From IMG/VR virus record IMGVR_UViG_3300009091_000209, positions 1 through 29,278 of that record: a DNA stretch of 29,278 nucleotides. One strand, given 5' to 3'. The notes beneath the pieces were generated by a model. That model worked only from the letters and a program-made list of their open reading frames with translations. It ran no database searches and had not been told where the DNA came from. The position numbers were made by a program, and so were the translations under genes. This stretch comes from a virus. Positions 4,607 to 23,812 of this stretch are shown one piece after another; positions within the stretch are counted from its first letter, which is position 1; the number at the start of each line of letters is the position of its first letter.

Positions 4607-4630
4607 TAACAAATTAAAGGAAATTAACAT

Positions 4631-6464: not shown

Positions 6465-6474
6465 AGGAAAATAA

Positions 6475-7656
6475 ATGGCAACCCCTAGATATACAACACA
6501 TTTTATTACATCTGATAATTCAGATTGTGGAACTCAATTTTTAGATAAAGATTATATGATTTCTGTTTATCCAGAACTTATTCCATCTTGGAAACTACCA
6601 AGATTATGGGCATGGGGGTCAAACAACGCAGGACAACTAGGAGATGGAACAATAACTCCTAAATCATCTCCAATTCAAATAGGTTTATTATCAGATTGGA
6701 AACAAATTAGTAGTGGGCTTGGAAGTAATTCAGCAGCTGTTAAAAATGACGGAACATTATGGACTTGGGGGGATAACCCCCAAGGACCGTTGGGAGATGG
6801 AACAATAATTAAGAAATCTTCTCCTATTCAAATTGGTTCTTTAACAGATTGGGCTAATGTGTGTATAACAGCTAGTACAACAGCAGTTAAAAAAGATGGA
6901 ACTCTTTGGTCTTGGGGAAGTAATTCTTGGGGTCAACTAGGTGATGGAACAACTACTCCAAAATCTTCTCCTATTCAAGTAGGTTTATTAACTAATTGGA
7001 AACAAGCTAATGGTGGACAAAATTTTACCATGGCTATTAAAACAGATGGTACAGTATGGAGTTGTGGATATAATGGTAGTGGTCAATTAGGTGATGGAAC
7101 AAGAACTAATAGATCAAGTCCAGTTCAAATAGGATTATTAACAGATTGGAAATCTGTTAATGCTAGTTATTTTACCACATATGCTATTAAAATTGATGGA
7201 ACATTGTGGAGTTGGGGAGGTAACAGCTTCGGACAAATTGGTGATGGAACAAGAACTAATAACTCAAGTCCAGTTCAAATTGGTTCATTAACAAGTTGGA
7301 AACAAATTAGTGGTGGATATAGTCACGTAGCAGCGGTCAAAACTAATGGAACCTTATGGGCTTGGGGGGATAATACCTATGGGCAACTTGGTAATGGAGC
7401 TACTTCTAATATAAGTAGCCCAGTTCAAATAGGATCATTAACAAATTGGAAACAAGTCAGTAGTGGAAGTTATTTCAGTATGGCAATTAAGACTGATGGA
7501 ACTTTATGGGGTTGGGGGTATAATGGTAATGGTCAACTTGGTATTGGTGGAATATCTTCAAAATCAAGTCCAGTTCAAATCGGATCGTTAAATAATTGGA
7601 AATTAGTTGCTTGTGGAAACTTCACAATAGCAATTAGTGAAGGTAGTGGTTTTTAA
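6475..7656 (+). CDS. RCC1-repeat protein, one seven-bladed propeller
   Basis: A 393-residue protein with about 45 unique N-terminal residues (MATPRYTTHF ... KDYMISVYPELIPSWKLPRLW) followed by exactly seven RCC1-type units and a short GSGF tail. It is close in sequence to the propellers on either side, with many identical runs such as SSPVQIGSLTNWKQ, so it is a duplicate of the same ancestor. The start follows the previous stop by 10 bp with AGGA at 6465-6468. It is the last gene of the first fibre operon; a late promoter motif follows before fibre 2. An adhesin role is inferred, and no enzymatic residues are evident. Confidence 0.85.
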   Translation: MATPRYTTHFITSDNSDCGTQFLDKDYMISVYPELIPSWKLPRLWAWGSNNAGQLGDGTITPKSSPIQIGLLSDWKQISSGLGSNSAAVKNDGTLWTWGDNPQGPLGDGTIIKKSSPIQIGSLTDWANVCITASTTAVKKDGTLWSWGSNSWGQLGDGTTTPKSSPIQVGLLTNWKQANGGQNFTMAIKTDGTVWSCGYNGSGQLGDGTRTNRSSPVQIGLLTDWKSVNASYFTTYAIKIDGTLWSWGGNSFGQIGDGTRTNNSSPVQIGSLTSWKQISGGYSHVAAVKTNGTLWAWGDNTYGQLGNGATSNISSPVQIGSLTNWKQVSSGSYFSMAIKTDGTLWGWGYNGNGQLGIGGISSKSSPVQIGSLNNWKLVACGNFTIAISEGSGF

Positions 7657-7693
7657 AATATTAAATATTATATCAGGTTAGAAGACAACAATA

Positions 7694-7702
7694 GATAAAT
7701 AT
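7694..7702 (+). promoter_or_regulatory. Candidate T4-type late promoter for fibre 2
   Basis: GATAAATAT differs from T4 TATAAATA by its first base. It lies 27 bp upstream of the GGAG-led ATG at 7729, in the 72-bp gap after the first RCC1 cluster. The same element stands before fibre 3 at 12119. Confidence 0.5.
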
Positions 7703-7728
7703 ATTCATTGTATTATGGAGAACTTTCA

Positions 7729-10707
7729 ATGAGAATAAATTTTAGACAAGGTCTTGTACGTGTTCCAACTAACTTTCTTAGCTTTTCTGGTGGATTTGTT
7801 AGTTTGGTTATACCAGCAGCTGAAACACTTGTTGCAACATTTGCGGACGGCATTAACGATTACTTAATCACAGAACGAAGTTCTATATCACCATCTACTT
7901 GGGGGCCATTTACCGCTGGTACTGATTATTGGTTATATTTTGATATCAATCCAAGTACTGGTCAAAGAACATTTGGATATACACTATATGAACCAGTAGA
8001 AACAGCACAACCACCTCTAACCCCATTAACAGGACAATGTTGGTTTGATACAAGTACTACTACTTTTAAAGTTTGGTCTGGAGCAAGTTGGGTTCGCAAG
8101 ATTCGTGTATTTGCAGCTAAATTAAGTTCTGGTGCTATACTTGTTAGTATGAGTATCAATTCTCCATCTTATACTGGAACACAAGTTGGTATTCTGAATA
8201 ATATTTCTAGTAATGCTGGTGCTTTAGTTTTTGATGCAGTTACTGGTTTTCCAATTAAGAAAAGTGATGGAACCTTCTTTACAACTGAAGATTTAGCTAT
8301 TACTGGTATTGCTTCTAGTTCCCATGTTAAATTTGGTAGTATTATTATTGAAGCAGAAGCACAAAGTAATATTCCAGCATATTCAATTGTACGCTTCACA
8401 GATTTTAATAAAGTTATTGTTGCAAATAACTACTTGATTGATAACGGAACTTATGGTATTGTTGATTATGAAGCTGCAACTGGTAATTTAGTAAATGTAA
8501 CCTTAGAAGGTTTAATTGAAAATCTTGCTTGGGATTGGACTACTGCTGGTATTAATGCTCCATTATATGTTGATATAAATGGTTATTTAACTACAAGTAT
8601 CCCACCAACTCCTATTATTGTTGCTGCTGTGGTAGATAAACATACTATTTTACTTCGTCCATCTTCATTATTCTTGAATACTTCTAATGACCCAGCAACT
8701 CCTACAAATCCTGGTTCAGTTAAAATAAGTGTTCCTGCTGTTAACCCATTAGATCCTATTGTTGTCGGAGATAATGACCCACGTTTTGTTTCAGCATATG
8801 GACATGTTTCAAATGTTGATGTTCATTTAACATCAAATGAAAATATCTTCTTGGATAGCTTAGTTAGTTATTCTGGTGGGATAACAGTAATGAAAAATGA
8901 TCACACTGGTATTACAAGAACATTACAAGCACCTGCTGCTGGTTTTACTATTACAAATAGTGATGCAACAGCAGGAAATCCAACATTTGTATTAACAAAT
9001 GATTTAGCTGCTATAGAAGGATTAGGAGCAGCAGGATTAGCTGTTCGTAGAGCACCTGATGTTTGGACAACCCGTTCTCTTGTACCACCTACTAATGGCC
9101 TTACAATCACTTTTCCTGATGCCGTTGACGGTAATCCAACATTCGCCTTAGCAGATGATTTGGCACAAGTAGAAGCATTATCTACTTATGGTATAACTGC
9201 TCGTACACTTATTGATGGATGGATAACTCGTACATTACAAGCTCCTGCTGAAGGATTTACTATTACCCATCCTGACGGATCAGGTGGTGATCCAACTTTT
9301 GTATTAGCAAATGATTTACTTGGACTTGAAAGTTTAACTGGTAATGGTGCTGCTTTCCGTACAACTACTGGATGGCAAACTCATTCATTAACAGTTAGTG
9401 GTGATGGTATAGCAATCGCAAATCCTGGTGGTGAACTTGGTGCTCCAACTTTTTCGTTAAATCATGATTTAGCACAAATCGAAGGATTAACTGGTATTGG
9501 TTTTGCTGTACGTACAAATAATAATCCAGAAATCTGGACAACACGTTCTATTACTGCTGCTTCTGGTCAAACAACAGTTACATATCCTGATGGACAAGCT
9601 CAAGATGTTATAGTTGGACTTCCAAATATTGGAACTCCAGTTGTTGCTGCTTTTGAAAAAATTACAACAGATGTTCAAGGTCGTGTTTCAGCAACAACTG
9701 CTGTAACTCCAACAGATATTACAACAGCATTAGCATATACCCCAGTTAATAAAGCTGGTGATGTAATGACTGGAGCGTTAATATTAAATGCTGACCCTAG
9801 TGCTGCTCTTGGTGCAGCAACTAAACAATATGTTGATAATTTAGCTTCTGGATTAGATCCTAAAGGTTCAGTTACTGCTGCTACTACTGTTCCTATTACA
9901 TTAGCTAATAACCAATCTATCGATAATATTCCTGTTACAACTGGTATGCGTGTATTGGTTAAAGACCAAGGTGATCAAACAACAAATGGTATATATGATG
10001 TTCAGGCAGCTAATCCTTGGACTCGTTCTGTCGATGCTATTCCAGGAACAACATTAACTGGTGGAGCTTATGTATTTGTTGAACAAGGTGATACTTATGC
10101 TGAAAGTGGATGGGTATTAACTACTGATGATCCAATTACTGGTGCGTCTTTACTTGTTTTCCAACAATTTAGTGGTGCTGGTCAAATAACTGCTGGTGTT
10201 GGATTACAAAAAACAGGTAATAATTTACACGTTATTACCCCAACAGTTGGTAATATTACTATTAATGGTGCAGGTGTTGATTTAACACCAACTGGTATAG
10301 TTCCAGGTACATATAAATCTTTATATGTTGATACATATGGTCGTATTACATCAGCAACTAATCCAACTACTTTAGGTGGATATGGTATTATAGATGCACA
10401 ACCATTAAATACAAACTTAACTGATATTTCAGCATTTTCTGGTGTAGGGTTTGCAGTAAGAAATACAGGAGGTACTTGGTCACAACGTTCTATTACTGGA
10501 ACAGCAAATCAAATTGTTGTTACTACTGGTGGTGGTGATGGTGCTAATCCAAGTTTATCATTAGATAGTTCATATGTTCAATTTCCAGGAACTAATGCTA
10601 CTTTTGTTCCAATTGGTACAACTGCACAAGCAGTTACAGTACTTAATGGTGGTTTAAGATATGATTCTACCACCAATAATATGCGTATGGTTGAAAGTGG
10701 TGCTTGA
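7729..10707 (+). CDS. Tail fibre 2, N-terminal part (frame broken at its end)
   Basis: A 992-residue open frame. I take the ATG at 7729 (GGAG at 7717-7720, protein starting MRINFRQG like MRIPFRQG of fibre 3) over a TTG 21 bp upstream. Residues 1 to about 330 are the shared fibre-attachment module. Residues about 380-650 hold several copies of a fibre-shaft repeat of about 47 residues (GNPTFVLTNDLAAIEGLG, then AVR, W-TTRSL, GFTIT). A DVMTGALIL / ATKQYVDN collar motif follows, then a common phage fibre domain (VLVKDQGDQTTNGIY, YVFVEQGDTYAESGWV). The frame ends RYDSTTNNMRMVESGA-stop just where related fibres continue W-x-x-(V/I); the downstream frame continues the same pattern. There are no RCC1 repeats. 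Confidence 0.85.
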   Translation: MRINFRQGLVRVPTNFLSFSGGFVSLVIPAAETLVATFADGINDYLITERSSISPSTWGPFTAGTDYWLYFDINPSTGQRTFGYTLYEPVETAQPPLTPLTGQCWFDTSTTTFKVWSGASWVRKIRVFAAKLSSGAILVSMSINSPSYTGTQVGILNNISSNAGALVFDAVTGFPIKKSDGTFFTTEDLAITGIASSSHVKFGSIIIEAEAQSNIPAYSIVRFTDFNKVIVANNYLIDNGTYGIVDYEAATGNLVNVTLEGLIENLAWDWTTAGINAPLYVDINGYLTTSIPPTPIIVAAVVDKHTILLRPSSLFLNTSNDPATPTNPGSVKISVPAVNPLDPIVVGDNDPRFVSAYGHVSNVDVHLTSNENIFLDSLVSYSGGITVMKNDHTGITRTLQAPAAGFTITNSDATAGNPTFVLTNDLAAIEGLGAAGLAVRRAPDVWTTRSLVPPTNGLTITFPDAVDGNPTFALADDLAQVEALSTYGITARTLIDGWITRTLQAPAEGFTITHPDGSGGDPTFVLANDLLGLESLTGNGAAFRTTTGWQTHSLTVSGDGIAIANPGGELGAPTFSLNHDLAQIEGLTGIGFAVRTNNNPEIWTTRSITAASGQTTVTYPDGQAQDVIVGLPNIGTPVVAAFEKITTDVQGRVSATTAVTPTDITTALAYTPVNKAGDVMTGALILNADPSAALGAATKQYVDNLASGLDPKGSVTAATTVPITLANNQSIDNIPVTTGMRVLVKDQGDQTTNGIYDVQAANPWTRSVDAIPGTTLTGGAYVFVEQGDTYAESGWVLTTDDPITGASLLVFQQFSGAGQITAGVGLQKTGNNLHVITPTVGNITINGAGVDLTPTGIVPGTYKSLYVDTYGRITSATNPTTLGGYGIIDAQPLNTNLTDISAFSGVGFAVRNTGGTWSQRSITGTANQIVVTTGGGDGANPSLSLDSSYVQFPGTNATFVPIGTTAQAVTVLNGGLRYDSTTNNMRMVESGA

Positions 10708-12053
10708 AAGATGTTGGTACTATTAGAAATATAACATTTACTGACCCATTAGAAGGTATTACTCATAGTGGAGTATTAACTAATAGCACATATGCTATTA
10801 CAACAACTCTTACTGGGGATCTTCAAGCATTAGAAGCATTAACTTCAACTGGGTTTGTAATTCGTACTGGTGCTGATACATATCGTTTAGGTCAAATTGC
10901 AGGTACAGCTGGTAGAATTTCTGTTGCTAATGGTGGTGGTAATATAGATCCAGTTATAGATTTAGTAGCAACTGGTGTTACTGCTAATACTTATACAAAA
11001 GTTACTGCTGACATTTATGGTCGTATAACTTCTGCTGTTGTTCCAGGTACTCCAGGGGCCAATACATTATCTGATTATGGTTTATCAGCTGTAGCTCAAC
11101 CATTAGCAACTAATTTAACAAACTTATCAACATTTAATACTAATGGTATTATGTGTTATACCGGTTCAAACTCTTTTAATGGTCGTCAACTTGTTTCTGC
11201 TGCAGGAACAACTGTTACAAATATGAGTGTTACAAATCCTGCTGGTCAAGGTGGAGATATCACTCTTAATTTTATTGGTGATTTAGGTCCATTCTTAGCA
11301 GCTCAAACTGCTACTGGTTTTCCAGTTCGTACAGGAGCTACTGCTTGGTCACAACGTCAAATTGCTGGAACAACTAATAGAATTTCTATTACTAATCCAA
11401 CAGGTTCATTTGGTGATCCAACTATTGATATTGATGCAACATATGCAGGTCAAGCAACTATTGCTACAGTAGGTACTATTACTTCTGGTACATGGCATGG
11501 TAATCCAATTGCTCCAGTATATGGTGGTACAGGTATTTCTTCAAACGGTACAATTGACCAATTCTTAACGGTTAGTCATACTAATGCTACAGTTTGGGAA
11601 TATAAAACATTAAATGGTACATCAAATCAAGTGATTGTTGCTCAAGCTGCTGGTGTAACTACATTATCATTACCACAAAGTATTAATACAGCTGCTGATG
11701 TTGTTTTTAATAGTGTTAATGCACCAATCATTAAATCTGCTATATTAACATTAACCGATGCTGCTAATATTTCTTGGAATATGGCTCTTGGTATTAACGC
11801 AACAGTTACATTAACAGCAAGTCGCACATTAGATAATCCAACTAATTTACAATCTGGTGCTATTGTTGTATTAAAAGTTGTTCAAGATGGTGCTGGTGCT
11901 CATACATTAGCATATGGTACAGCATATAAATGGGTAGGTGGAGTAGGTGGAACTCCTGTAGTTGCTGCTGGTGTAAATGCTGTTTCTATTCTTACTTTCT
12001 TATGTGACGGTACAAACTTATATGAAATGTCAAGAGCTCTTGATGTAGCATAA
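10704..12053 (+). CDS. Tail fibre 2, C-terminal part (other frame)
   Basis: An open frame of 449 residues with no credible start: the only one near its beginning is TTG at 10704 without a Shine-Dalgarno, and the next in-frame Met is deep inside. It continues the same 47-residue shaft repeats as the upstream frame (GDLQALEALTSTGFVIRTG, GPFLAAQTATGFPVRTG). It ends in a trimeric tip domain common in phage fibres (AANISWNMALGINATVTL, LDNPTNLQSGAIVVLKVVQDGAG, AYKWVGG, LTFLCDGTNLYEM). Restoring one G at 10706/10707 (TGA to TGG) would give SGAWKDVGT and a single fibre of about 1442 residues. It is therefore the C-terminal part of the same gene, separated by a one-base loss that is either real or a sequencing error. 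Confidence 0.8.
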   Translation: MKDVGTIRNITFTDPLEGITHSGVLTNSTYAITTTLTGDLQALEALTSTGFVIRTGADTYRLGQIAGTAGRISVANGGGNIDPVIDLVATGVTANTYTKVTADIYGRITSAVVPGTPGANTLSDYGLSAVAQPLATNLTNLSTFNTNGIMCYTGSNSFNGRQLVSAAGTTVTNMSVTNPAGQGGDITLNFIGDLGPFLAAQTATGFPVRTGATAWSQRQIAGTTNRISITNPTGSFGDPTIDIDATYAGQATIATVGTITSGTWHGNPIAPVYGGTGISSNGTIDQFLTVSHTNATVWEYKTLNGTSNQVIVAQAAGVTTLSLPQSINTAADVVFNSVNAPIIKSAILTLTDAANISWNMALGINATVTLTASRTLDNPTNLQSGAIVVLKVVQDGAGAHTLAYGTAYKWVGGVGGTPVVAAGVNAVSILTFLCDGTNLYEMSRALDVA

Positions 12054-12074
12054 TCTTAAATAATAAAACCTAAC

Positions 12075-12105
12075 AAAAGGGAATAGATTGCTCTATTCCC
12101 TTTTT
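12075..12105 (+). terminator. Factor-independent terminator after fibre 2
   Basis: AAAAGGGAATAGA (12075-12087) pairs perfectly with TCTATTCCCTTTT (12092-12104) around a TTGC loop, giving a 13-bp stem that runs into a T-rich tail. It lies 22 bp after the stop of fibre 2 and before the late promoter of fibre 3. Confidence 0.9.
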
Positions 12106-12118
12106 CTTTGTCTGAATA

Positions 12119-12127
12119 GATAAATAT
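12119..12127 (+). promoter_or_regulatory. Candidate T4-type late promoter for fibre 3
   Basis: GATAAATAT, identical to the element at 7694-7702, lies directly after the terminator and 32 bp before the ATG at 12159, which has AGGA at 12146-12149. Confidence 0.5.
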
Positions 12128-12158
12128 TCTTATATATTAATTAACAGGAATAGTTCAC

Positions 12159-15100
12159 ATGCGTATCCCATTTCGTCAAGGTATAGTTTCCTACCACCAT
12201 CCACAATTTGTGCAAGTTGACTTTATGTATGTTAACCTGATTGCAAGTAACGAATCTCCTCTTATTCTCAATATAGCATCTGATACAACAGATTACTTAC
12301 ACATTGAAAAAAGTAATATTACACATGCTTGGGGTCCTATAACAGTTGGTTCAGATGTTTGGTTATATGTAGATATTGATCGTCATACTGCGCAACGAAC
12401 TTTTGGAACTACTTATTCTGAACCAACTGTTGGTGCTACAGCTCCTCTTGCTCCATCTAATAATAAACATTGGTTTGATACTACTATAAACCAAATGAAA
12501 GTATGGAATGGCACTAATTGGGCTATTAAAATTAGAATATTTGCTTGTAAATTACAAAATGGAACTATTCCAATTAGTATGAGCATATTATCTCCTGATT
12601 TTAGTGGAACACAAATTGGAAATACTAATAGTGTATTAGCTGGTTATATCTTATTTGATACTAACCAGAATCCACTAAAATCAGTAGAAGGTCAATTTAC
12701 CACATCTGAAGATGTTCTTAGAGTAAGTTCAGCATCAGCGAGTGATGTAAAAGTAGCAAGTTTAGTTGTTGAAGCAATGGCACAAGTTAACTTTCCAGCC
12801 TATACAATTGTAGAATTTACTAATTTTGGAATAGTTAAACCAGCAACAGCATTTGTAACACAATCTAAAAAACAATATGGTATAGTTCAAACGAACGCGA
12901 CTACAGGGGATATTGTAAATGTTAATGTTGACGGGTTAATCACAAATTCTACATGGGATTGGACATCTGTTGGAGTAAACACTTATCTGTATAATGATGA
13001 TAATGGTTTTATTAGTGCAACTTCTACTATTCCTGATCAACAACCAGTTGGTATTGTGGTTGATATTCATACAATAATGCTTGTAACAAAAATTATTTTA
13101 ACTAACGCTCCAGTGTTTATTGCTACTGATACCATAGCTGGTATATCAAAATTATCAGTAATTTCTGATTTTCCAAATAATCCTGTGGTTGTTGGGGACA
13201 ATGATTTAAGATTGACTAATGCTCGTCATCCGTTACCACATAGTCATCCTATTTCTGATACAACAAACTTACAATCCACCTTAGATGCTAAATTAAATTT
13301 AGCAGGTGGAATTATGACTGGAACTTTAATTTTACATAGTAATCCATCTGGGAATCTTGATGCTGCTACTAAACAATATGTAGATGCTGCTATTACTGGA
13401 TTATTTTGGCAAACTCCTATTAATGACCCTGATTTAAAAAATGATATTTTGAATACTCCTCCAGTAACTCCTGGGTTAGAAACTTATATTGTTGGTGGAA
13501 CTCCTACTGGATTGTGGATTGGATTAGCTGGACATTTTGTAAGATGGAATGGTTCTGTTTGGATAGATATACTTAACCGACCTGTTGCTATTGGTGATAG
13601 ATTTGGGGTAGGGTTGGAATTGGCTGGTGTACCATCTGGTGGATTAACTGGGCAAAAGGACAAAATTGCTCAAGTAACTGCAAATACTCCTGGAAGTATC
13701 ACATATGATTTTACTACCCCAACTAAAGGATATGCTACATTAGTTGATGCACAATTATCATCACATTTTGGACATCAATACACCTATAACGGAACTGAAT
13801 GGGTTGAATTATCTGGAGAACAAGCCTTAGATACTCTTACAGATGTCTTAATAACCTCTCCAATTGCAGGACAAGCACTAACATATTCAGGAGTTAATTG
13901 GATAAATGCTACCCCAACTACTACATTAGTTGGATTATCTGATGTATTATTATCTACACCAACTACAGGACAAGCTTTAACTTATAATGGAACTCATTGG
14001 ATTAATTCAACACCAGCAACTTCTTTATCTGGATTAAATGATGTAACATTATCCACTCCAGTTTCTGGACAATTATTATCATATAATGGGACAAAATGGA
14101 TTAATTCTCCAAATGTCAATAGTAATGTTGGATCTTTTGGAACAAATTCTCAAGTAGGAACATTTACTGTAAATGGACAAGGATTAGTAACAATAGCAAG
14201 TAATACTCCAATTTCTATTAATGCTATTGTTCCAACACAAACTGGGAATGCTGCTAAATTTTTAAAAACAGATGGAACTATTGTAAGTTGGGATGCAATA
14301 ACTACTCCACCAGTATATGGTATGTTAACTGCTGGTGGGAATGCAGGTGGTACACTCGGTGATGGAACACAAATCAATAAATCAAGTCCAATTCAAGTTG
14401 GATCTTTAACAGATTGGAGTACTACAGACGGAACGTTAGGTGGAACATATAGTGATGTTATGAGCATCAAAACAAATGGATCTTTGTGGGGGTGGGGAGC
14501 TAATCCTTATGGAGAACTTGGAAATGGAGTAGCAGGTGTTGCAATATTATCTCCTATTCAAATTGGTTCTGCAATTGATTGGAACCAACTATCAAAAGGT
14601 GGATATTATCACGTAGCAATTATCAAAACAGGGGGAACGTTATGGGCTTGTGGATATAACGGACAAGGACAACTTGGTTTAGGAGATATTAATCATAGAT
14701 CCAGTTTAACTCAAGTTGGGTTAGATACAAATTGGAGACAAGTTGAATGTGGAGTTTATACCACAATTGCGATTAAAAACGATGGAACTTTATGGAATTG
14801 GGGATTTAATTCTTATAATACACTTGGTGATGGAACAACAATAGGTAAATCCTCTCCAATTCAAATTGGTTCGTTCACAACCTGGAGTCAAATATCAGGT
14901 GGAGGGGGACATAATGCTGCCATTGACATAAACGGAAAGTTGTATATCTGGGGATGGAATCTATATGGACAACTGGGTGATGGAACACAAAATAATCAAT
15001 CAGTTCCAACTCAAGTTGGTTCATTAACAGATTGGAAACAAGTTTGTTGTACATATACACATAGTGCAGCTCTTAAAACTGATGGAACAATATGGACATG

Positions 15101-17201
15101 GGGGGATAACACTAGTGGGAAGCTTGGATTAGGGGATACTATTCCTAGATCAAGTCCTGTACAAGTTGGTTCTGCTACAACTTGGAAACAAATAGTTTGT
15201 GGATATGGTAATACTTGTGCTATACGAAATGATGGAACTTTGTGGGCTTGGGGTAGTAACGCTAATGGAGAACTTGGTGATGGGACAACAATTGATAAAT
15301 CATCACCTATCCAAATTGGTTCTTTAACTGGTTGGCAACAAGCTCAATATGGAATGTCTTTTTTGCGTGCTATAGGTCAAGTTATTGTTCCTACAGATAT
15401 ACCACATGGAGGAACAGGTCAGGGAAGTGCAATTGCTGCTTTTAATGCTTTAGCTCCTGTTCAAACAGGAAATATTGGTAAGTATTTAACAACTGATGGA
15501 GCAAATGCAAGTTGGGGAGTTATTAGCACTATTCCATCTCAAACAAATAATGCTGGTAAGTATTTAACAACTGATGGAGCAAATGCAAGTTGGGGAGTTA
15601 TTAGCACTATTCCATCTCAAACAAATAATGCTGGCAAATATTTGTCAACTAACGGAACAACAACACTCTGGTCAACAGTAGCAACAGGTGGTGGAGGAGG
15701 TACTCCTCCAACAGCTGGTACACCAAATAGAATATTAAGTACATTAGATGGATTTACTAAAAAATGGATACCATATACCGTTCCAATCACATACTATACA
15801 ATGTGGACTTGGGGATACAATCTTCGTGGTCAACTTGGTGACGGAACTATAACCAATAGATTTTCTCCTATTCAATTACTAAGTGGATCAGTAAATTGGA
15901 CAACAATATCCAACGGATATCATTTTTCCACATCTGTTAAGGCAGATGGAACTCTTTGGACATGGGGGTATAACGATTCTGGACAACTTGGACAAGGAAA
16001 TATTACTCCTAAATCAAGTCCAGTTCAAGTTGGGGCATTAACTAATTGGGCATCTACAACAGCTGGCATAGATTTTATGGCTGCTATTAAAACTGATGGA
16101 ACTTTATGGACTTGGGGTAGTAATACTAGTGGAAAATTAGGTGATGGAACAACAATTAGAAAATCATCTCCTATTCAAGTTGGAGCACTAACTAATTGGA
16201 ATTCTGTATGTCTTGGAACTAATTTTATAACAACTATTAAAAATGATGGAACTTTGTGGACTTGGGGAAATAATTCTAATGGACAACTTGGGGATGGAAC
16301 AGTTACTTCTACTTCTTCTCCAAGTCAGATTGGTACATTAACAAATTGGACACAAGCATCAAATGGTGATCGTAATGCTGCGGCTGTTAAGTCTGATGGA
16401 ACATTATGGACGTGGGGATTTAACGGTAGCGGTCAATTAGGGTTAGGAGATATAGCTAGTAGAAGTAGTCCAACTCAAGTTGGTGCGTTAACTAATTGGA
16501 AACAAATAGCATGTGGATACACTCATAATGTAGCTGTTAAAACAGACGGAACATTATGGGGTTGGGGTTGGAATAGTTTAGGACAACTTGGGTTAGGAGA
16601 TAGAACTAACAGATCTAGTCCAGTTCAAATTGGTTCGATGACTAATTGGGCTTCTGTATCTTGTGGATATCAACATACAACAGCTATTAAAACTGATGGA
16701 ACTCTTTGGTCTTGGGGAAGTAATACTTATGGTCAGATAGGTGATAGTACATCAGTTGCAAAATCTAGTCCAGTTCAAATTGGTTCAATGACTAATTGGT
16801 CAATACTTTCTGACGGTTTTTATCATACAATAGCTTTACAAAAAACAGATTCTGTTGGTGTTACTACACCAACACCAAATACAGTAGCAGGAAGAGATTC
16901 CAATGCTGATTTATATGCCAATAATTTCATATCTAATTCAGATATAATATTAAAAGAACATATAAGAGATATTGAAACACCAGAAGACCTTATTAATACA
17001 TTAATTGGACATAGATTTAGAATGATTGACTCACAACAAGAATCTTTTGGTTTAATTGCTCAAGAAGTTGAATTAATATTACCAGAACTGGTATTTCAAA
17101 ACGGAGATACTAAATCTGTTAATTATATTCCAATAATTGGTATTTTAATAGAAGCTGTTAAATCATTAAAACACAAAATTGACATATTGTCAAACAAATA
17201 A
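12159..17201 (+). CDS. Giant tail fibre 3 with two internal RCC1 propellers and S74 chaperone
   Basis: A 1680-residue fibre. Residues 1 to about 330 are the shared attachment module. An HPLPHSHP segment and a collar motif (GIMTGTLIL, ATKQYVDA) follow, then a RWNGSVW domain and three copies of a shaft unit of the type LSDVLLSTPTTGQALTYNGTHWINS. Residues about 720-1073 hold seven RCC1-type blades. A GGTGQ linker with a duplicated 26-residue unit follows, then residues about 1212-1563 hold seven more blades. The end is an S74 intramolecular chaperone with Ser1594 and Lys1599 (SDIILK, +5 spacing), GLIAQEVELILPE and a C-terminal helix. Fibres with S74 ends are normally trimers cut at the serine, so a mature fibre could display six propellers. 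Having monomeric-type propellers inside a trimeric fibre is unusual. Confidence 0.88.
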   Translation: MRIPFRQGIVSYHHPQFVQVDFMYVNLIASNESPLILNIASDTTDYLHIEKSNITHAWGPITVGSDVWLYVDIDRHTAQRTFGTTYSEPTVGATAPLAPSNNKHWFDTTINQMKVWNGTNWAIKIRIFACKLQNGTIPISMSILSPDFSGTQIGNTNSVLAGYILFDTNQNPLKSVEGQFTTSEDVLRVSSASASDVKVASLVVEAMAQVNFPAYTIVEFTNFGIVKPATAFVTQSKKQYGIVQTNATTGDIVNVNVDGLITNSTWDWTSVGVNTYLYNDDNGFISATSTIPDQQPVGIVVDIHTIMLVTKIILTNAPVFIATDTIAGISKLSVISDFPNNPVVVGDNDLRLTNARHPLPHSHPISDTTNLQSTLDAKLNLAGGIMTGTLILHSNPSGNLDAATKQYVDAAITGLFWQTPINDPDLKNDILNTPPVTPGLETYIVGGTPTGLWIGLAGHFVRWNGSVWIDILNRPVAIGDRFGVGLELAGVPSGGLTGQKDKIAQVTANTPGSITYDFTTPTKGYATLVDAQLSSHFGHQYTYNGTEWVELSGEQALDTLTDVLITSPIAGQALTYSGVNWINATPTTTLVGLSDVLLSTPTTGQALTYNGTHWINSTPATSLSGLNDVTLSTPVSGQLLSYNGTKWINSPNVNSNVGSFGTNSQVGTFTVNGQGLVTIASNTPISINAIVPTQTGNAAKFLKTDGTIVSWDAITTPPVYGMLTAGGNAGGTLGDGTQINKSSPIQVGSLTDWSTTDGTLGGTYSDVMSIKTNGSLWGWGANPYGELGNGVAGVAILSPIQIGSAIDWNQLSKGGYYHVAIIKTGGTLWACGYNGQGQLGLGDINHRSSLTQVGLDTNWRQVECGVYTTIAIKNDGTLWNWGFNSYNTLGDGTTIGKSSPIQIGSFTTWSQISGGGGHNAAIDINGKLYIWGWNLYGQLGDGTQNNQSVPTQVGSLTDWKQVCCTYTHSAALKTDGTIWTWGDNTSGKLGLGDTIPRSSPVQVGSATTWKQIVCGYGNTCAIRNDGTLWAWGSNANGELGDGTTIDKSSPIQIGSLTGWQQAQYGMSFLRAIGQVIVPTDIPHGGTGQGSAIAAFNALAPVQTGNIGKYLTTDGANASWGVISTIPSQTNNAGKYLTTDGANASWGVISTIPSQTNNAGKYLSTNGTTTLWSTVATGGGGGTPPTAGTPNRILSTLDGFTKKWIPYTVPITYYTMWTWGYNLRGQLGDGTITNRFSPIQLLSGSVNWTTISNGYHFSTSVKADGTLWTWGYNDSGQLGQGNITPKSSPVQVGALTNWASTTAGIDFMAAIKTDGTLWTWGSNTSGKLGDGTTIRKSSPIQVGALTNWNSVCLGTNFITTIKNDGTLWTWGNNSNGQLGDGTVTSTSSPSQIGTLTNWTQASNGDRNAAAVKSDGTLWTWGFNGSGQLGLGDIASRSSPTQVGALTNWKQIACGYTHNVAVKTDGTLWGWGWNSLGQLGLGDRTNRSSPVQIGSMTNWASVSCGYQHTTAIKTDGTLWSWGSNTYGQIGDSTSVAKSSPVQIGSMTNWSILSDGFYHTIALQKTDSVGVTTPTPNTVAGRDSNADLYANNFISNSDIILKEHIRDIETPEDLINTLIGHRFRMIDSQQESFGLIAQEVELILPELVFQNGDTKSVNYIPIIGILIEAVKSLKHKIDILSNK
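15477..15632 (+). repeat. Perfect 78-bp tandem duplication in fibre 3
   Basis: 15477-15554 and 15555-15632 are identical over 78 bp by eye; a third, diverged partial copy follows. Each encodes 26 residues (GKYLTTDGANASW plus GVISTIPSQTNNA) of the linker between the two propellers. Perfect identity including third codon positions means a very recent duplication or ongoing homogenisation. Confidence 0.92.
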
Positions 17202-17216
17202 ACGGAGAAGATAATC

Positions 17217-18344
17217 ATGCCTTCAAATTTTAAATTTCCAATTGATGGAATACTTTATGACATACTAGATCTATTCATCATTAAACCTATCTTTGGAACA
17301 AATTCTTCTTTATGGGCTTGTGGATTTAATAATCTAGGTAGACTTGGAGATGGAACAATTATTAATAAATCTTCTCCGATTCAAGTTGGATCATTAACAG
17401 ATTGGAATACTATTTGTGCTGGAAATAGTTCATATTCTGTCAAATCTACTGGAACTCTTTGGGCTTGGGGACCAAATGGTAATGGTGAACTTGGAAATGG
17501 AACTAGAACGGCAGTATCTAGTCCTATTCAAATTGGTTCTTTAACTAACTGGAAACAAGTTAATGGTTGTAATCTAGCAGCTCACGCTATTAAAACTGAT
17601 GGAACATTATGGGGTTGGGGATTAGGAAATAGACTTGGTGATGGAACAATTATATCTAAATCTAGTCCTATTCAAATTGGTTCTTTAACAACTTGGAAGG
17701 CTGTTGCTGGTATTGGTCCTTCACTAGTAGCTCTCAAAACAGATGGAACAATATGGAGTTGGGGAACTGATGGGTATTCTGGTACTCTTGGACAAGGTAC
17801 AACAAGTACTAATCGATCAAGTCCAACACAAATTGGACTACTAACTAATTGGAAACAAGTTTCTTGTGGATATAATTTCATGGGAGCTGTTAAAACTTAT
17901 GGAACTCTTTGGGTATGGGGAGATAATTATTATGGTCAACTTGGGTTAGGAGATAGAACTAACAGATCTAGTCCAGTTCAACTTGGGTTACAAACCAATT
18001 GGTCACAAGTATCATGTGGAAATCTTCATTTGACTGCCACTAAAACAGATGGAACATTATGGGCTTGTGGATATAATGCATATGGTCAATTAGGTGATGG
18101 AACAATAATTTCAAGATCATCTCCTGTTCAAACCGGGTTATCAACAAATTGGCGACAGGTTTCAGCTAATGGTGCTAGTACTGCTGCTGTTAAACTTGAT
18201 GGAACTTTATGGAATTGGGGAGATAATTCTCAAGGACAACTTGGTGATGGAACAATTGCTAATAAATCATCACCAATTCAAGTTGGATCGTTAACGAGTT
18301 GGAGAGCTGTAGCTGTTGGAAATTATTATATACTAGCAGTATAA
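17217..18344 (+). CDS. RCC1-repeat protein, one seven-bladed propeller
   Basis: A 375-residue protein with exactly seven RCC1-type units after a 30-residue N-terminus (MPSNFKFPIDG ... DLFIIKPIF) that resembles the protein at 5307. Blade 3 is short (GWGLGNRLGDGT) and blade 4 carries an insertion (TDGYSGTLGQGT). It starts 16 bp after fibre 3 with GGAG at 17204-17207, so it is the distal gene of the fibre 3 operon, just as the 2420 gene follows fibre 1. Blade 5 shares 45 identical bases (17937-17981) with fibre 3 (16584-16628). The inferred role is a separately made adhesin tip belonging to fibre 3. Confidence 0.85.
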   Translation: MPSNFKFPIDGILYDILDLFIIKPIFGTNSSLWACGFNNLGRLGDGTIINKSSPIQVGSLTDWNTICAGNSSYSVKSTGTLWAWGPNGNGELGNGTRTAVSSPIQIGSLTNWKQVNGCNLAAHAIKTDGTLWGWGLGNRLGDGTIISKSSPIQIGSLTTWKAVAGIGPSLVALKTDGTIWSWGTDGYSGTLGQGTTSTNRSSPTQIGLLTNWKQVSCGYNFMGAVKTYGTLWVWGDNYYGQLGLGDRTNRSSPVQLGLQTNWSQVSCGNLHLTATKTDGTLWACGYNAYGQLGDGTIISRSSPVQTGLSTNWRQVSANGASTAAVKLDGTLWNWGDNSQGQLGDGTIANKSSPIQVGSLTSWRAVAVGNYYILAV

Positions 18345-18966: not shown

Positions 18967-19425
18967 ATGAAAAATCAAAAAATTATATTTTTATTATTGT
19001 TTATATTAATATTATTTCCTATACCATTAGTAAGTTCTCCTGGAGATGTTACTATTATATTTTCTAACTATGATTTATCAAACACGATTTTTATGAATAA
19101 AATTGCAGTACAACGTATATTTACAAGAAAAGATATTCGTTGGAGTAATGGAGATAGCATTACTGTGTTTATTAAACCAATGGAATCCATAGAAAATAGA
19201 ATGTTCATAGCAGATATATTAAATATGACCTTATATCGTTATCAAAAAAGTTTAGAAACAGCTACTTATACAGGTAAAGCTAATTCTGTAATTGAAGTAC
19301 CTGATGATGCTCATATGCACACAGCAATAGATGCTCATCCAGGGGCTATTGGATATTTAAATTATGAAATTGTAACTCACGACAAGATAATCATAATATG
19401 TGAAGATGATGGAAACTGTATATAA
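18967..19425 (+). CDS. Secreted PstS/PBP-like domain protein
   Basis: A 152-residue protein with a strong signal sequence (MKNQKIIFLLLFILILFPIPLVSS) and a likely cut near residue 24. The mature part resembles the short, single-domain family annotated in bacteria as phosphate ABC transporter substrate-binding proteins: an IFTRKDIRWSNGDSITVFIKP segment (residues 51-71) matching the family's IF-G-...-W-DG-.-hydrophobic strand, and HPGAIGYL at 124-131 matching the conserved NPGAIGY. At this size it lacks one lobe of a full PstS and may sense or scavenge rather than import. It ends with a Cys pair (C145, C151). It lies 7 bp after the membrane protein gene, with no clear Shine-Dalgarno, and directly before a porin-like gene, a pairing that suggests an envelope module taken from a host. 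Confidence 0.65.
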   Translation: MKNQKIIFLLLFILILFPIPLVSSPGDVTIIFSNYDLSNTIFMNKIAVQRIFTRKDIRWSNGDSITVFIKPMESIENRMFIADILNMTLYRYQKSLETATYTGKANSVIEVPDDAHMHTAIDAHPGAIGYLNYEIVTHDKIIIICEDDGNCI

Positions 19426-19432
19426 TAATCTC

Positions 19433-19461
19433 TTGACTTTATTTAAAATATAAGTTACAAT
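19433..19461 (+). promoter_or_regulatory. Sigma-70-type promoter before the porin-like gene
   Basis: TTGACT (19433-19438), a 17-bp spacer and TACAAT (19456-19461) match the host housekeeping consensus well. Expected initiation near 19468 would leave a leader of about 25 bases without a Shine-Dalgarno before the ATG at 19493. Confidence 0.7.
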
Positions 19462-19492
19462 ACCTATTCAAATTTAAATATATAATCATCTA

Positions 19493-20608
19493 ATGAAAAG
19501 AATAATAGTGTTAGTGTGTCTGTTAAATTATAATAATGTGTTCGCAAAAACGTATGAATTACCTTATGATATACACATTGATATTAGTGGATATGTAGGT
19601 TGGAGACAAATGTTTTCAAATGTAAAATTTGATGCTGTTCCATCTGAACCTGAACTAGGACTACTTGCAAATCTTCAAGTTACTGATAGATTAAGAATAT
19701 TTAATCAATTCAAATATGGTACAACCATTAATGAAATACTCGTATATAATAAAATTTTATACACCCCAGATATTCCCATTGATGATTTTGAATTAACATT
19801 TAGAGGTGGTAAGATACGATATGATAATTTATTATATAATGCTACAAGGGTAAATCCAAGAACAAGACAAGGGGTATTTCAACCACAAGCTATATATTGG
19901 AATCCTATGGCTCAAACTGTTACAAGTGGAACAGGAGGTGGAGTTGATATAAAATATAAAAACCTTACTGTATCTTATGTTCTAACTGACCAAACAAGTG
20001 TAAATTCAGATTTAGAAGCTAAAGCTTGGACTCGTGCAAACAATACCACTAATTATAAAACAAAATTTGGTAGTTATCAATTAGCAACTATTGGGTATGA
20101 AATACCAGAATATGGTATACGAACAAGATCATCTTGGGAGGGATTTAAAGCTACTTTTGATGTAATAAATGGTCCAAAAAATAATGATTTATCAGGTCAA
20201 CGACTTAGTACTGGTATTGAATGGATTCATAATGATTGGACATTATCTGTTGAAGGATTTTGTTTACAACGTGGTTCTAAAGTTTGGAATACTTTTAGTG
20301 GATCATTTTGTGCTATCTCTCCAACAGTTGAATATGATATTACTCCAGAATTTTCAGCTCGAATAAATTATAATCAATATCGTACACCTGGAATAACACA
20401 AGCTAAAACTCCAGGAGCTCAAGCACAAACATATTCAAAAGATTTAAACTTGGGTTTTGGTTGGCATAAAGGACAATGGTTAGCAAATGTTCAAGTTAAT
20501 TATATTCAAGGTGGTCGATTAGTTGATCCATATAATTTTGCAGCAAATCCTACTGATTATAAGAATTTTTATGTTGTAGGTACGAATTTAGTATGGTTTT
20601 GGGAATGA
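19493..20608 (+). CDS. Outer-membrane beta-barrel, porin-like
   Basis: A 371-residue protein. A signal peptide (MKRIIVLVCLLNYNNVFA, cut before Lys19) is followed by many short amphipathic strands with alternating hydrophobic residues and aromatic girdles (FRIFNQFKYG-like, LTVSYVLTDQ, ATIGYEIPEYG, WTLSVEGFCLQRG, LNLGFGWHKGQWLANVQVNYIQGG). It ends VVGTNLVWFWE; a final aromatic strand is typical of outer-membrane barrels, although the last residue is Glu rather than Phe. The size fits a 14- to 16-strand barrel. The VNPRTRQGVFQPQAIYW stretch looks like a conserved family motif, but I cannot name the family. It has its own host-type promoter. Phage-borne porins are known to replace a receptor or change permeability; which applies here is unknown. 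Confidence 0.7.
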   Translation: MKRIIVLVCLLNYNNVFAKTYELPYDIHIDISGYVGWRQMFSNVKFDAVPSEPELGLLANLQVTDRLRIFNQFKYGTTINEILVYNKILYTPDIPIDDFELTFRGGKIRYDNLLYNATRVNPRTRQGVFQPQAIYWNPMAQTVTSGTGGGVDIKYKNLTVSYVLTDQTSVNSDLEAKAWTRANNTTNYKTKFGSYQLATIGYEIPEYGIRTRSSWEGFKATFDVINGPKNNDLSGQRLSTGIEWIHNDWTLSVEGFCLQRGSKVWNTFSGSFCAISPTVEYDITPEFSARINYNQYRTPGITQAKTPGAQAQTYSKDLNLGFGWHKGQWLANVQVNYIQGGRLVDPYNFAANPTDYKNFYVVGTNLVWFWE

Positions 20609-20624
20609 TATTACTATTCTACTG

Positions 20625-20653
20625 TTGTCTTCTTAATATAAATAAGATATAAT
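20625..20653 (+). promoter_or_regulatory. Sigma-70-type promoter before the sulfotransferase cassette
   Basis: TTGTCT (20625-20630), a 17-bp spacer and a perfect TATAAT (20648-20653) lie 33 bp before the ATG at 20686. It is the start of the probable sulfotransferase - APS kinase - methyltransferase - glycosyltransferase operon. Confidence 0.7.
20637..20644 (+). promoter_or_regulatory. Exact T4 late promoter sequence inside the sigma-70 spacer
   Basis: TATAAATA matches the T4 late consensus exactly and lies inside the spacer of the host-type promoter, 42 bp before the ATG at 20686. The cassette may be read both early and late. Confidence 0.45.
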
Positions 20654-20685
20654 ACACAATAAACTATACTCTATAAGGATATAAC

Positions 20686-21462
20686 ATGAACAAACAGTTC
20701 TATTTCATTTCAGGCCTTCCACGTTCTGGAACAACCCTGTTATCAGCAATATTAAACCAAAATCCAAGATTTCAAGCAAGTATATCAGGTCCATTAGCAA
20801 GATTTGTTCGTGCTGTTATTGAACAATCATCTGCTCAAGGCGGATATCGCTATCAATGCGATGAAGCAAAACGTAAAAAAATCATTCAAGGTATGTTCGA
20901 TAATTACTATAATGATGGAACCAAAGAAGTATTCTTCGATACTAATCGTGGTTGGAATCTATTACTTCCTACTGTTAAGGAGTTATATCCAACAACAAAA
21001 GTTATTTGTTGTGTTAGAGATATTAAATGGATTTTAGATTCATTTGAACAACTCATTCGTAAAAATCCATTATCTGTCACTCCAATGTTTACATCAGATG
21101 AAAATACTAATGTGTATACAAGATGTCAAACTTTATTAAGAGAAGATAAAACATTAGGGTTTGCTTATGCTGCCCTCAAACAAGCAATTACAAGTGATGA
21201 AAAAACTATGATTATGTTGGTTGAGTATGACAAATTATGTAAAAATCCAGAACAAATGATGAAAACTATTTATAAATTTATTGGTCAAGAATATTTTGAA
21301 CATGATTTTAATAATGTTGAAACATCTTATGAAGAATTTGATAATGATGTTAATTTAAAAGGATTACACACAACTCGTAAGAAAATTTCATTTATTGAAC
21401 GACCAACTATTTTACCACCAGATATTATAGCACACGTTAAGGGGCTTGAGGTGTGGAGATGA
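20686..21462 (+). CDS. PAPS-dependent sulfotransferase
   Basis: A 258-residue protein of the Sulfotransfer superfamily. The 5'-phosphosulfate loop GLPRSGTT is at residues 10-17 near the N-terminus. The 3'-phosphate-binding element follows the strand KVICCV with Arg111 and Ser119 (CVRDIKWILDSF). A YDKLCKNPEQMMKTIYKFIG helix (the usual YEDL..P...L..I..FLG) and a C-terminal segment resembling K-x-x-x-IERPTILPPD complete the fold. It transfers sulfate from PAPS to a hydroxyl or amine; the acceptor is unknown, and a glycan is likely given the glycosyltransferase two genes on. AGGA at 20676-20679 sets the start. The stop overlaps the next ATG in ATGA, tying it to the APS kinase that makes PAPS. Confidence 0.85.
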   Translation: MNKQFYFISGLPRSGTTLLSAILNQNPRFQASISGPLARFVRAVIEQSSAQGGYRYQCDEAKRKKIIQGMFDNYYNDGTKEVFFDTNRGWNLLLPTVKELYPTTKVICCVRDIKWILDSFEQLIRKNPLSVTPMFTSDENTNVYTRCQTLLREDKTLGFAYAALKQAITSDEKTMIMLVEYDKLCKNPEQMMKTIYKFIGQEYFEHDFNNVETSYEEFDNDVNLKGLHTTRKKISFIERPTILPPDIIAHVKGLEVWR

Positions 21463-21887
21463 AAATATTAATATTTGGATTACCAGGTTCTGGAAAAACA
21501 ACTTATGCTAATGACTTGAATAAACTACTAAACTATTCAAGAATAAACGGTGATGAAGTTCGTAAAGCAGCAAATGATTGGGATTTTTCATATGAAGGTA
21601 GAATCAGACAAGCTGTAAGAATTAAAGAATTAGCAGATACAATGGAAGATGTTATTATTGATTTTGTTGCTCCTTATCAAAAAATGAGAAAGATTATTAA
21701 TCCAGATTTTACTATCTGGATGGATACTATCACAGAAAGTATATATCAAGATACTAATATAATATTTGAACAACCATATGTTGGAGAAGATTTTGGTGAT
21801 GGTTATATAAGAATAAGTAAATTTGGTGATGACATCCCAATAGTTAGTTGTCTTATAACAGACATAAAGAAATCTTTTTCGTTATAA
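21459..21887 (+). CDS. Adenylylsulfate (APS) kinase-like, phage type
   Basis: A 142-residue P-loop kinase. I take the ATG at 21459 (ATGA overlap with the sulfotransferase stop) over a GTG six bases upstream. GLPGSGKTT (7-15) is the Walker A loop. INGDEVR (29-35) and NDWDFSYEGRIRQAVRIKELAD match the APS kinase DGD-x-R / LGFS-x-x-R-x-x-x-R signature, with Asp32, Arg35, Phe43, Arg48 and Arg50 as the visible equivalents. IDFVAPYQKMR corresponds to the AFISPY-x-x-x-R strand. It phosphorylates APS to PAPS, the sulfotransferase donor. It is shorter than cellular CysC (about 200 residues) and its C-terminus after IWMDTI is divergent, as I recall from other phage versions. No ATP sulfurylase is seen, so APS would come from the host. 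Confidence 0.8.
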   Translation: MKILIFGLPGSGKTTYANDLNKLLNYSRINGDEVRKAANDWDFSYEGRIRQAVRIKELADTMEDVIIDFVAPYQKMRKIINPDFTIWMDTITESIYQDTNIIFEQPYVGEDFGDGYIRISKFGDDIPIVSCLITDIKKSFSL

Positions 21888-21896
21888 AGGATAACT

Positions 21897-22442
21897 ATGA
21901 CAAAAATTAATATTGGTGGTGGATATAAAAGATATGATGGGTTCTTAACCCTTGATATGGATCCACATACAAAACCAGATTTTTTGGTTAATCTAGAAAC
22001 TGATACTTATCCATTTGAAGATAATTCAGTAGATGAAGTAAAAGCCTATCATATTTTAGAACATATGGGTGAAGGATTCTTTCATTGTATGAAGGAATTA
22101 TACAGAATATGTAAAGATGGTGCTATCATCGATATAGTCGTTCCTCATCATAGACACGATATCTTTTTAGCTGATCCAACACATAGACGTCCTATCCTAA
22201 TTGAAGGTATGAGACTATTCAGCAAGAAATATAATAATGACCATATTGAAAAACATGGCAGTAGTTCTGGTTTAGGAATTGCTTTAGATGTTGATTTTGA
22301 AATAATTGAAACTGGATATACACTTGACCCTTTTTATGAAGAATTTGTTAGAACTGCTGAAAGAGACGTAGTAGTGGAAAAAGAACGTTCCTGTAATAAT
22401 TTTGTTCAAGAGACAAAAATGAAACTTATGGTAATTAAGTAA
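21897..22442 (+). CDS. SAM-dependent methyltransferase (class I)
   Basis: A 181-residue protein. INIGGGYKRYDGFLTLDMDP (4-23) combines the glycine-rich SAM loop (motif I) with the acidic end of strand 2 (Asp20). YPFEDNSVDEVKAYHILEHM (38-57) is the post-I/motif IV region with HILEH, typical of the Methyltransf_11 group found in glycan gene clusters. IVVPHHRHD is a later strand and loop. The substrate is unknown; the neighbours (sulfotransferase, glycosyltransferase) suggest sugar O-methylation, and nothing marks it as a DNA methylase (no DPPY or PC motif). AGGA at 21888-21891 precedes the start, and the stop overlaps the next ATG in TAATG. Confidence 0.75.
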   Translation: MTKINIGGGYKRYDGFLTLDMDPHTKPDFLVNLETDTYPFEDNSVDEVKAYHILEHMGEGFFHCMKELYRICKDGAIIDIVVPHHRHDIFLADPTHRRPILIEGMRLFSKKYNNDHIEKHGSSSGLGIALDVDFEIIETGYTLDPFYEEFVRTAERDVVVEKERSCNNFVQETKMKLMVIK

Positions 22443-23812
22443 TGTTAGATGACATCATAGATTTTTTAAAGAAAACTGATGAATTAGTAGCTGCTAACTC
22501 TTTATTAGGAACAATGTCTAAGTATGCAGTTCGTGTTGAAGAATATGATAATCTTGCTAGATGGTTTATGGAAGTAAAAAATTATCCGTTAGCCATTCGA
22601 TATGCTGAAAAGGCATTAGTCAATACAGCAACAAACGAAGGAATGTACGCTTGTCGTAGCAATTTAGCAAAATTATATAATCATATTAATGATCCTAAAG
22701 CTTCATTAAGATATTCCAATGCTAATTTGTTAATAAATCCAGGTGATTATGAATCATTAATGGAACAAGTGTTTTCATACTTTTTATTAAATGAAAAAGG
22801 GAAATCAGAAAATATTTTACGTGAAATAAAAACTCATCCAGATTTACCTGAAAATGTATTACATCGTGTCAACTTTAATCTTGGAACTTATGACTTATAT
22901 AAAGGAGAATTTCAAAAAGGTTTAAGAGGATTCTTAATTGAAGGAAAGAAAATAGGTATATGGAAAGACATAAAATTACCATTTAAGTTTTGGGATGGTG
23001 GAATTCAACCAGGTAAAACTATTGTTATATGTGCTGAAGGTGGGATTGGAGATGAACTAATCAGTTGTAGGTTTGTCAAACACTTCAAAGAATTGGATAT
23101 GAATCCAATATGGTATACTACAAGACCTGATATAATTGAAATATTTAGAAGACATGGAATTGATGCTCGTTCATCATTACACGATGTTCCTCAAGATGCT
23201 CTATGGACTTATTCAATGTCAGTTCCTGTATATCTTGATGTTCAAGTTAAAGATTTATGGGATGGTCCATATATTACAGCAGATCCTGAATATATCGAAA
23301 AATGGAAATGGATATCTGAAAAACCATTAGAAAATCATCCAGATACCCCTAATAAACCTAAAGTGGGGATTAGATGGACTGGAAATCCAGCATATGAACA
23401 TGATTTACACAGAGAAGTACCCTTAACTCTATTAAATGATATCATATATGATAGGGGGTATAAAGTATACTCATTACAACGAGATCATGGTGCTGATGAA
23501 ATTTATACAGATGCTTTATACACAGAAATAACAGATTTACAATACGAACTTGAACATATTGAAGATACACTTGCTGTTATACATCATTTAGATTTTGTAA
23601 TTACATCTTGCACATCTGTTGCTCATATGGCAGCAACAATGGGTAAAAAAACATATGTTTTAGTACCTATTACAGCATATTATACTTGGGCAAGTACAAC
23701 TGATACAAGCTCTATTTGGTATGGAGATAATGTTAAAGTACTACGTCAAATAGTGCATAAATCGTGGGCTGAACCATTAAAACAATTAGAGGATTTATTG
23801 GCAACTTCATAA
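22442..23812 (+). CDS. TPR protein fused to a GT9-like glycosyltransferase
   Basis: A 456-residue protein. Residues about 35-165 are helical TPR-like repeats (NYPLAIRYAEKALV, PKASLRYSNANLLINPGDYES, GEFQKGLRGF). Residues about 190-456 look like a GT-B glycosyltransferase of the heptosyltransferase-like type: ICAEGGIGDELI (197-207, the N-terminal Gly-x-Gly-D loop), VGIRWTGNP (308-316) and ITSCTSVAHMAATMGK (387-402), matching the D/CTxxAHLAxxxGxP nucleotide-sugar motif. Donor and acceptor are unknown. TPR-GT fusions often act on protein or lipid-linked glycans. It is the last gene of the four-gene decoration cassette and overlaps the methyltransferase stop by one base. Confidence 0.75.
   Translation: MLDDIIDFLKKTDELVAANSLLGTMSKYAVRVEEYDNLARWFMEVKNYPLAIRYAEKALVNTATNEGMYACRSNLAKLYNHINDPKASLRYSNANLLINPGDYESLMEQVFSYFLLNEKGKSENILREIKTHPDLPENVLHRVNFNLGTYDLYKGEFQKGLRGFLIEGKKIGIWKDIKLPFKFWDGGIQPGKTIVICAEGGIGDELISCRFVKHFKELDMNPIWYTTRPDIIEIFRRHGIDARSSLHDVPQDALWTYSMSVPVYLDVQVKDLWDGPYITADPEYIEKWKWISEKPLENHPDTPNKPKVGIRWTGNPAYEHDLHREVPLTLLNDIIYDRGYKVYSLQRDHGADEIYTDALYTEITDLQYELEHIEDTLAVIHHLDFVITSCTSVAHMAATMGKKTYVLVPITAYYTWASTTDTSSIWYGDNVKVLRQIVHKSWAEPLKQLEDLLATS

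Follow-up and report, generated by a model that had tools for sequence, protein, structure and literature searches.

The window, meaning the whole 29,278-bp stretch of DNA that was analysed, is the complete IMG/VR record IMGVR_UViG_3300009091_000209, a linear fragment of a T4-like phage for which megablast found no near-identical phage. RCC1-repeat and S74-type fibre genes (333-18344) are followed by a small gene group, the cassette described here, and genes for gp32, UvsX, UvsY, and a helicase. All four open reading frames of the cassette were confirmed, in the order sulfotransferase, kinase, methyltransferase, and a glycosyltransferase with tetratricopeptide repeats (TPR-GT). The features are as follows:

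2420-7656 and 12159-17201 (within these spans): further RCC1-repeat proteins of the tail-fibre cluster
17217-18344, + strand: RCC1-repeat protein of the tail-fibre cluster 5' of the cassette (PF25390, PF00415; PHROG fibre/RCC1 matches)
20625-20653, + strand: sigma70-like TTGTCT-17-TATAAT, indistinguishable from chance
20637-20644, + strand: T4-late-type promoter box TATAAATA, an exact match 49 nt before the sulfotransferase start
20686-21462, + strand: predicted sulfotransferase, 258 aa, Sulfotransfer_3/TPST-like, with the 5'-PSB loop GLPRSGTT
21459-21887, + strand: short lid-less P-loop kinase assigned to the APS-kinase family, 142 aa (PF01583 and fold)
21897-22442, + strand: putative class I SAM methyltransferase, 181 aa (PF08241)
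22442-23812, + strand: predicted glycosyltransferase with TPR (about residues 1-175) and GT-B/GT9-like (about 186-456) parts, by fold

The kinase ATG overlaps the sulfotransferase stop codon (ATGA, 21459-21462), 9 nt separate the kinase from the methyltransferase, and the methyltransferase stop shares one base with the TPR-GT start (TAATG), as the overlap and the one-base or short spacings of the initial annotation had it; the order implied there, with the kinase first, has to be reversed, as the sulfotransferase gene precedes the kinase gene. The kinase start adopted here is the ATG at 21459, versus a GTG at 21453 in the mechanical ORF list. The stretch 2420-18344 forms a single fibre cluster with five RCC1-repeat proteins. 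Between the last of these genes and the sulfotransferase (18967-20608) lie two proteins, neither with a Pfam match: the first is small, secreted-looking, and by eye like phosphate-binding (PstS-like) domains, and the second (371 aa) is outer-membrane-porin-like.

The four genes form a genuine cassette, which is widespread and recurrent among phage contigs. Among 80 TPR-GT loci, with genes called as mechanical ORFs, RCC1 fibre genes were present in 63, the sulfotransferase in 60, the methyltransferase in 58, a CxxCxxCC protein in 30, and the kinase in 22, and the recurrent order was S74, RCC1, fibre, RCC1, sulfotransferase, kinase and/or CxxCxxCC protein, methyltransferase, and TPR-GT, so that the cassette proposed earlier is borne out beyond the window. 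On one 363-kb contig (L029), gp32 and UvsX follow the cassette as they do in the window. In another locus (L021) the other three genes keep their order and a CxxCxxCC protein (PF03692) occupies the kinase slot, which indicates that the kinase is an optional member. TibC-type GT9 enzymes bind iron, and a metal link is conceivable for the CxxCxxCC protein of that slot (L021:6768-7130). RCC1 fibre clusters also recur in related phage contigs and may be modules of receptor-binding diversity.

The late box TATAAATA occurs in the window 40, 44, and 49 nt before 12159, 18486, and 20686, and is not enriched there (3 found versus 6.6 expected). Its position before the sulfotransferase is nevertheless retained, with ATAAATA found within 60 nt 5' of the gene in all 7 of the closest distinct relatives, the window among them (1.0 expected), and, overall, in 9 of 16 relatives (1.3 expected). 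Because the box is kept in these seven relatives, a T4-late-type promoter directing late expression is supported as a prediction, in line with the exact T4-late promoter first noted at this position. The host-type promoter noted beside it is not upheld, as sigma70-like sites in the region are at background (77 found versus 81.7, sd 10.8, in shuffles).

The assignment of the first gene product as a PAPS-type, TPST-like sulfotransferase appears sound from its sequence. It matches PF13469 (E 3.7e-17, 63.7 bits, cut-off 27) over about 200 residues as well as PHROG 27463, among solved structures it is closest to protein-tyrosine sulfotransferases (profile E 2.6e-11), and it shares with tyrosylprotein sulfotransferases and other Sulfotransfer_3 proteins the PAPS 5'-binding loop GLPRSGTT, of which GLPRSG (residues 10-15) is invariant in the sulfotransferase alignment (A3); the sulfotransferase of the initial annotation is thus retained. 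Unlike the membrane-anchored Golgi TPSTs, the phage protein begins at the catalytic domain, with the PSB loop at residue 10. The methyltransferase matches PHROG 6636 (E 3.7e-14) and, marginally and over the C-terminal half of the profile only, PF08241 (Methyltransf_11; 23.1 bits versus a cut-off of 21.2).

The TPR-GT is supported by fold, not by Pfam, as a TPR plus GT-B (GT9-type) glycosyltransferase, which is the sense in which the earlier label "TPR-GT9-like" can be kept. Its match to the GT9 profile PF01075 is below threshold (E 0.14, 11.9 bits, cut-off 22), whereas in an AlphaFold model built from 22 relatives (pLDDT 90.5) the C-terminal part best fits GT9 enzymes, with VIA Z scores of 18.1 to 3tov, 17.1 to WaaF, and 16.4 to TibC; the superposition on 3tov (3.3 A over 249 residues) ranks above the TPR-only rows in VIA. 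The top Foldseek matches are SPINDLY and the O-GlcNAc transferases (OGT), which come first because of their TPR plus GT-B arrangement. The predicted protein therefore resembles GT9 enzymes (WaaC, WaaF, TibC) in its GT-B domain and the TPR-GT41 enzymes OGT and SPINDLY in its N-terminal TPR arm, and it differs from both in sharing only 10-14% identity with them and in scoring below the Pfam GT9 cut-off. These nearest folds suggest that it would work like a TPR-guided transferase. SPINDLY, OGT, and TibC are protein modifiers.

The kinase is harder to place. Its best profile matches are APS kinases, but the match to PF01583 (E 8.9e-9, 36 bits, cut-off 21.1) covers only profile positions 5-92 of 152, the first 60%, and the curated ApsK model TIGR00455 (an NCBIfam equivalog) gives 31.4 bits, not reaching its cut-off of 138.7. 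The AlphaFold model (pLDDT 90) superposes on APS kinases with VIA Z 15.1-15.3 (2.3-2.4 A over 134-136 of 142 residues), and gluconate kinases follow close behind (Z about 14.4), so the fold alone cannot fix the substrate. In CysC of M. tuberculosis, D480, R483, F492, and R497 contact APS, and a lid (residues 552-581) with R559, K562, and F576 contacts ATP and APS (PMC4373884). The former residues correspond to D32, R35, F43, and R48 of the phage kinase, of which the last three are invariant and D32 nearly invariant in the family alignment. The lid stretch RDPKxLYKKA...FTGID, of roughly 30 residues, is absent from all the relatives aligned. Thus, the 142-aa protein shares with CysC/ApsK (PF01583, TIGR00455) the P-loop, the P-loop kinase fold, and the APS-facing D/R/F/R set, and differs from them in that a short segment ending in DTN-x-x-F stands in place of the 30-residue Arg/Lys/Phe lid and in that the usual partner of the family is NMNAT-like rather than ATP sulfurylase. 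Judged by its sequence, the kinase belongs to a separate, lid-less branch within the APS-kinase family and is no canonical APS kinase.

The association of the kinase with the sulfotransferase is recurrent. Among 83 non-redundant sulfotransferase loci, 33 also carry the kinase, which lies within two genes of the sulfotransferase in 25 of the 33 (12.3 expected under random placement in the same locus) and directly adjoins it in 15 (6.6 expected); these loci were fetched through the cassette genes and are related, so that the counts describe a tendency and not a rate. The kinase tree shows 16 changes of the sulfotransferase-linked label, versus 29 in shuffles, which suggests that the pairing arose repeatedly. 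The window kinase falls in a three-member clade (support 0.90), all members of which are sulfotransferase-linked.

Relatives of the kinase, at 47-59% identity, occur commonly in SAR11, SAR86, SAR116, and other bacteria, where they lie mostly not beside a sulfotransferase but beside an HxGH nucleotidyltransferase of 130 aa, which most closely resembles NMN adenylyltransferases and usually follows the kinase or is fused to it. This NMNAT-like partner was found in 20 of 21 kinase-bearing genomes and Sulfotransfer_3 proteins in 13; ATP sulfurylase was found as Sat in one and as CysD in two, and the same three genomes hold a separate true ApsK. No known ATP sulfurylase was found in the other 18 of these 21 genomes, which are largely partial single-cell or metagenome assemblies. 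The partner was also considered as an ATP sulfurylase by sequence and rejected, since profile A1 scored just 1.7 bits against the sulfurylase portion of 2gks and NMN adenylyltransferases were the sole matches of the partner profile (A6). Sulfotransferase-like genes adjoining the kinase in two SAR11 loci (L232, L260) have a convincing motif and no Pfam match, and were excluded from the counts. In some phages the lid-less kinase is fused to the NMNAT-like HxGH domain (L012:5995-6780, L016:5995-6780, L022:4992-5729, and L023:6001-6729), and in one of them, Stenotrophomonas phage Bhz60 (L022), the gene before the fusion is annotated as a NADAR-domain protein. As the window is a fragment, the nucleotidyltransferase partner of its kinase may lie outside it.

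These partnerships give weight to a different role for the kinase, namely that it is not an APS kinase and phosphorylates some other nucleotide or riboside, for instance in an NAD-type pathway with the NMNAT-like partner, with its sulfotransferase link being loose. The constancy of that partner, whose nearest solved relatives are NMN adenylyltransferases and not ATP sulfurylases, the 18 genomes with no known ATP sulfurylase, and the loss of the lid all point this way, as does the content of typical SAR11 kinase operons (FAD-oxidase/GCV_T, M24, and methyltransferase genes, with a homocysteine S-methyltransferase in one sampled upstream stretch). A possible precedent is Cj1415 of Campylobacter, a cytidine diphosphoramidate kinase that carries an APS-kinase annotation. 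However, the retained APS-facing arginines, phenylalanine, and aspartate, the APS kinases as best profile matches, and the repeated adjacency with sulfotransferases argue against such a role, which we consider a serious possibility, if a doubtful one. For the initial claim that the two enzymes make and use PAPS, the sulfotransferase half holds, whereas the kinase is not established as the PAPS maker given its missing lid and its 31.4 of 138.7 bits; PAPS supply by the phage kinase is plausible but unproven.

Of 58 Pelagibacterales genomes, 38 have the kinase and 5 have CysD, and no genome has both (p 0.003, uncorrected for phylogeny and with genomes partly incomplete). A sulfotransferase is present in 27 of the 38 genomes with the kinase, in all 5 with CysD, and in 6 of the 15 with neither (p 0.026 for either activator versus neither and p 0.058 for the kinase alone, uncorrected for phylogeny), an association that is suggestive only. 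Many SAR11-type genomes (G001-G021 and the Pelagibacterales G022-G077) encode Sulfotransfer_3 proteins, with neither an ATP sulfurylase nor a canonical APS kinase recognised in them, and SAR11 is known to lack assimilatory sulfate reduction (PMC5069961). The lid-less kinase and its NMNAT-like HxGH partner, fused in some phages and there directly behind a sulfotransferase, could conceivably form a compact, unrecognised PAPS synthase that supplies the sulfotransferases of SAR11 and related bacteria lacking ATP sulfurylase, and from which phages carry pieces for fibre decoration, although we regard this as quite improbable. More improbable by far is a sulfur auxiliary-metabolism set in which the kinase contributes to sulfate assimilation by the host, with the remaining genes as unrelated passengers. 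By Pfam alone the kinase would be named APS_kinase, and published work reports cysC-type genes among viral auxiliary genes; however, the recurrent co-localisation with sulfotransferase, methyltransferase, TPR-GT, and fibre genes makes such a set unlikely, no sulfate-reduction gene was recognised in the window, and the use of PAPS by a sulfotransferase is not assimilatory.

The late timing, the fibre linkage, the TPR transferase, and the TPST-like sulfotransferase together make decoration of the phage's own fibres the most likely role of the cassette. We infer the following substrates, acceptor, reaction order, and purpose. The cytosolic TPR-GT would probably use its TPR arm to recognise a structural protein of the phage, most likely a fibre, and would transfer a sugar to it from a nucleotide-sugar donor; this sugar or the protein would then be modified by the methyltransferase and, with PAPS, by the TPST-like sulfotransferase; and the lid-less kinase would most likely phosphorylate the 3'-OH of APS or of a close AMP-X analogue, boosting the donor. 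We hold this picture of a late-expressed decoration cassette on the tail-fibre (host-recognition) module tentatively, at somewhat less than an even chance. The kinase residues equivalent to R559, K562, and F576 of CysC are missing and its relatives mostly keep an NMNAT-like partner instead of a sulfotransferase, both of which weigh against it, and the pieces of the cassette may act on different targets. Virion glycosylation has a precedent in mycobacteriophages, according to work cited in PMC12619734; sulfation of virions was not found in open-access literature text, where phage sulfotransferases receive only passing mention as auxiliary genes.

The chief rival is that the cassette puts a sulfated, methylated sugar on the host surface (LPS or O-antigen), excluding competing phages or masking receptors, which we judge unlikely. 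In the host-recognition clusters of pelagimyophages and cyanomyophages, glycosyltransferases are interspersed with tail-fibre genes, as here, and those of the marine myophages were read as modifiers of the host O-chain (PMC7029224), a reading that favours the host surface and counts against the fibre; the text describing those clusters makes no mention of sulfotransferases, in contrast to the compact sulfotransferase, kinase, methyltransferase, and glycosyltransferase set after the RCC1 fibres of the window. Similarly, WaaC and WaaF, GT9 enzymes that build LPS, are among the best fold matches of the TPR-GT, and a single stretch of cyanophage S-SRM01 contains relatives of two cassette genes, the sulfotransferase and the TPR-GT, together with a glycosyltransferase and a nucleotide-sugar epimerase. 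However, the late-type promoter and the tight coupling to fibre genes fit modification of the virion better, a TPR arm is characteristic of transferases that act on proteins, and none of the window genes searched was recognised as a flippase, polymerase, or ligase. As regards the sulfated, methylated glycan originally proposed for either fibres or the host surface, the cassette, its fibre-gene linkage, and its late expression are supported; the neighbourhood and the late promoter favour fibres, and sequence does not settle the choice.

Viral cysC calls that rest on the Pfam APS_kinase profile alone need checking, and the kinase family raises the question of where SAR11 sulfotransferases obtain their PAPS. 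As a widespread, fibre-linked set, the cassette described here would add sulfation to the known glycosyltransferase repertoire of phage host-recognition modules.
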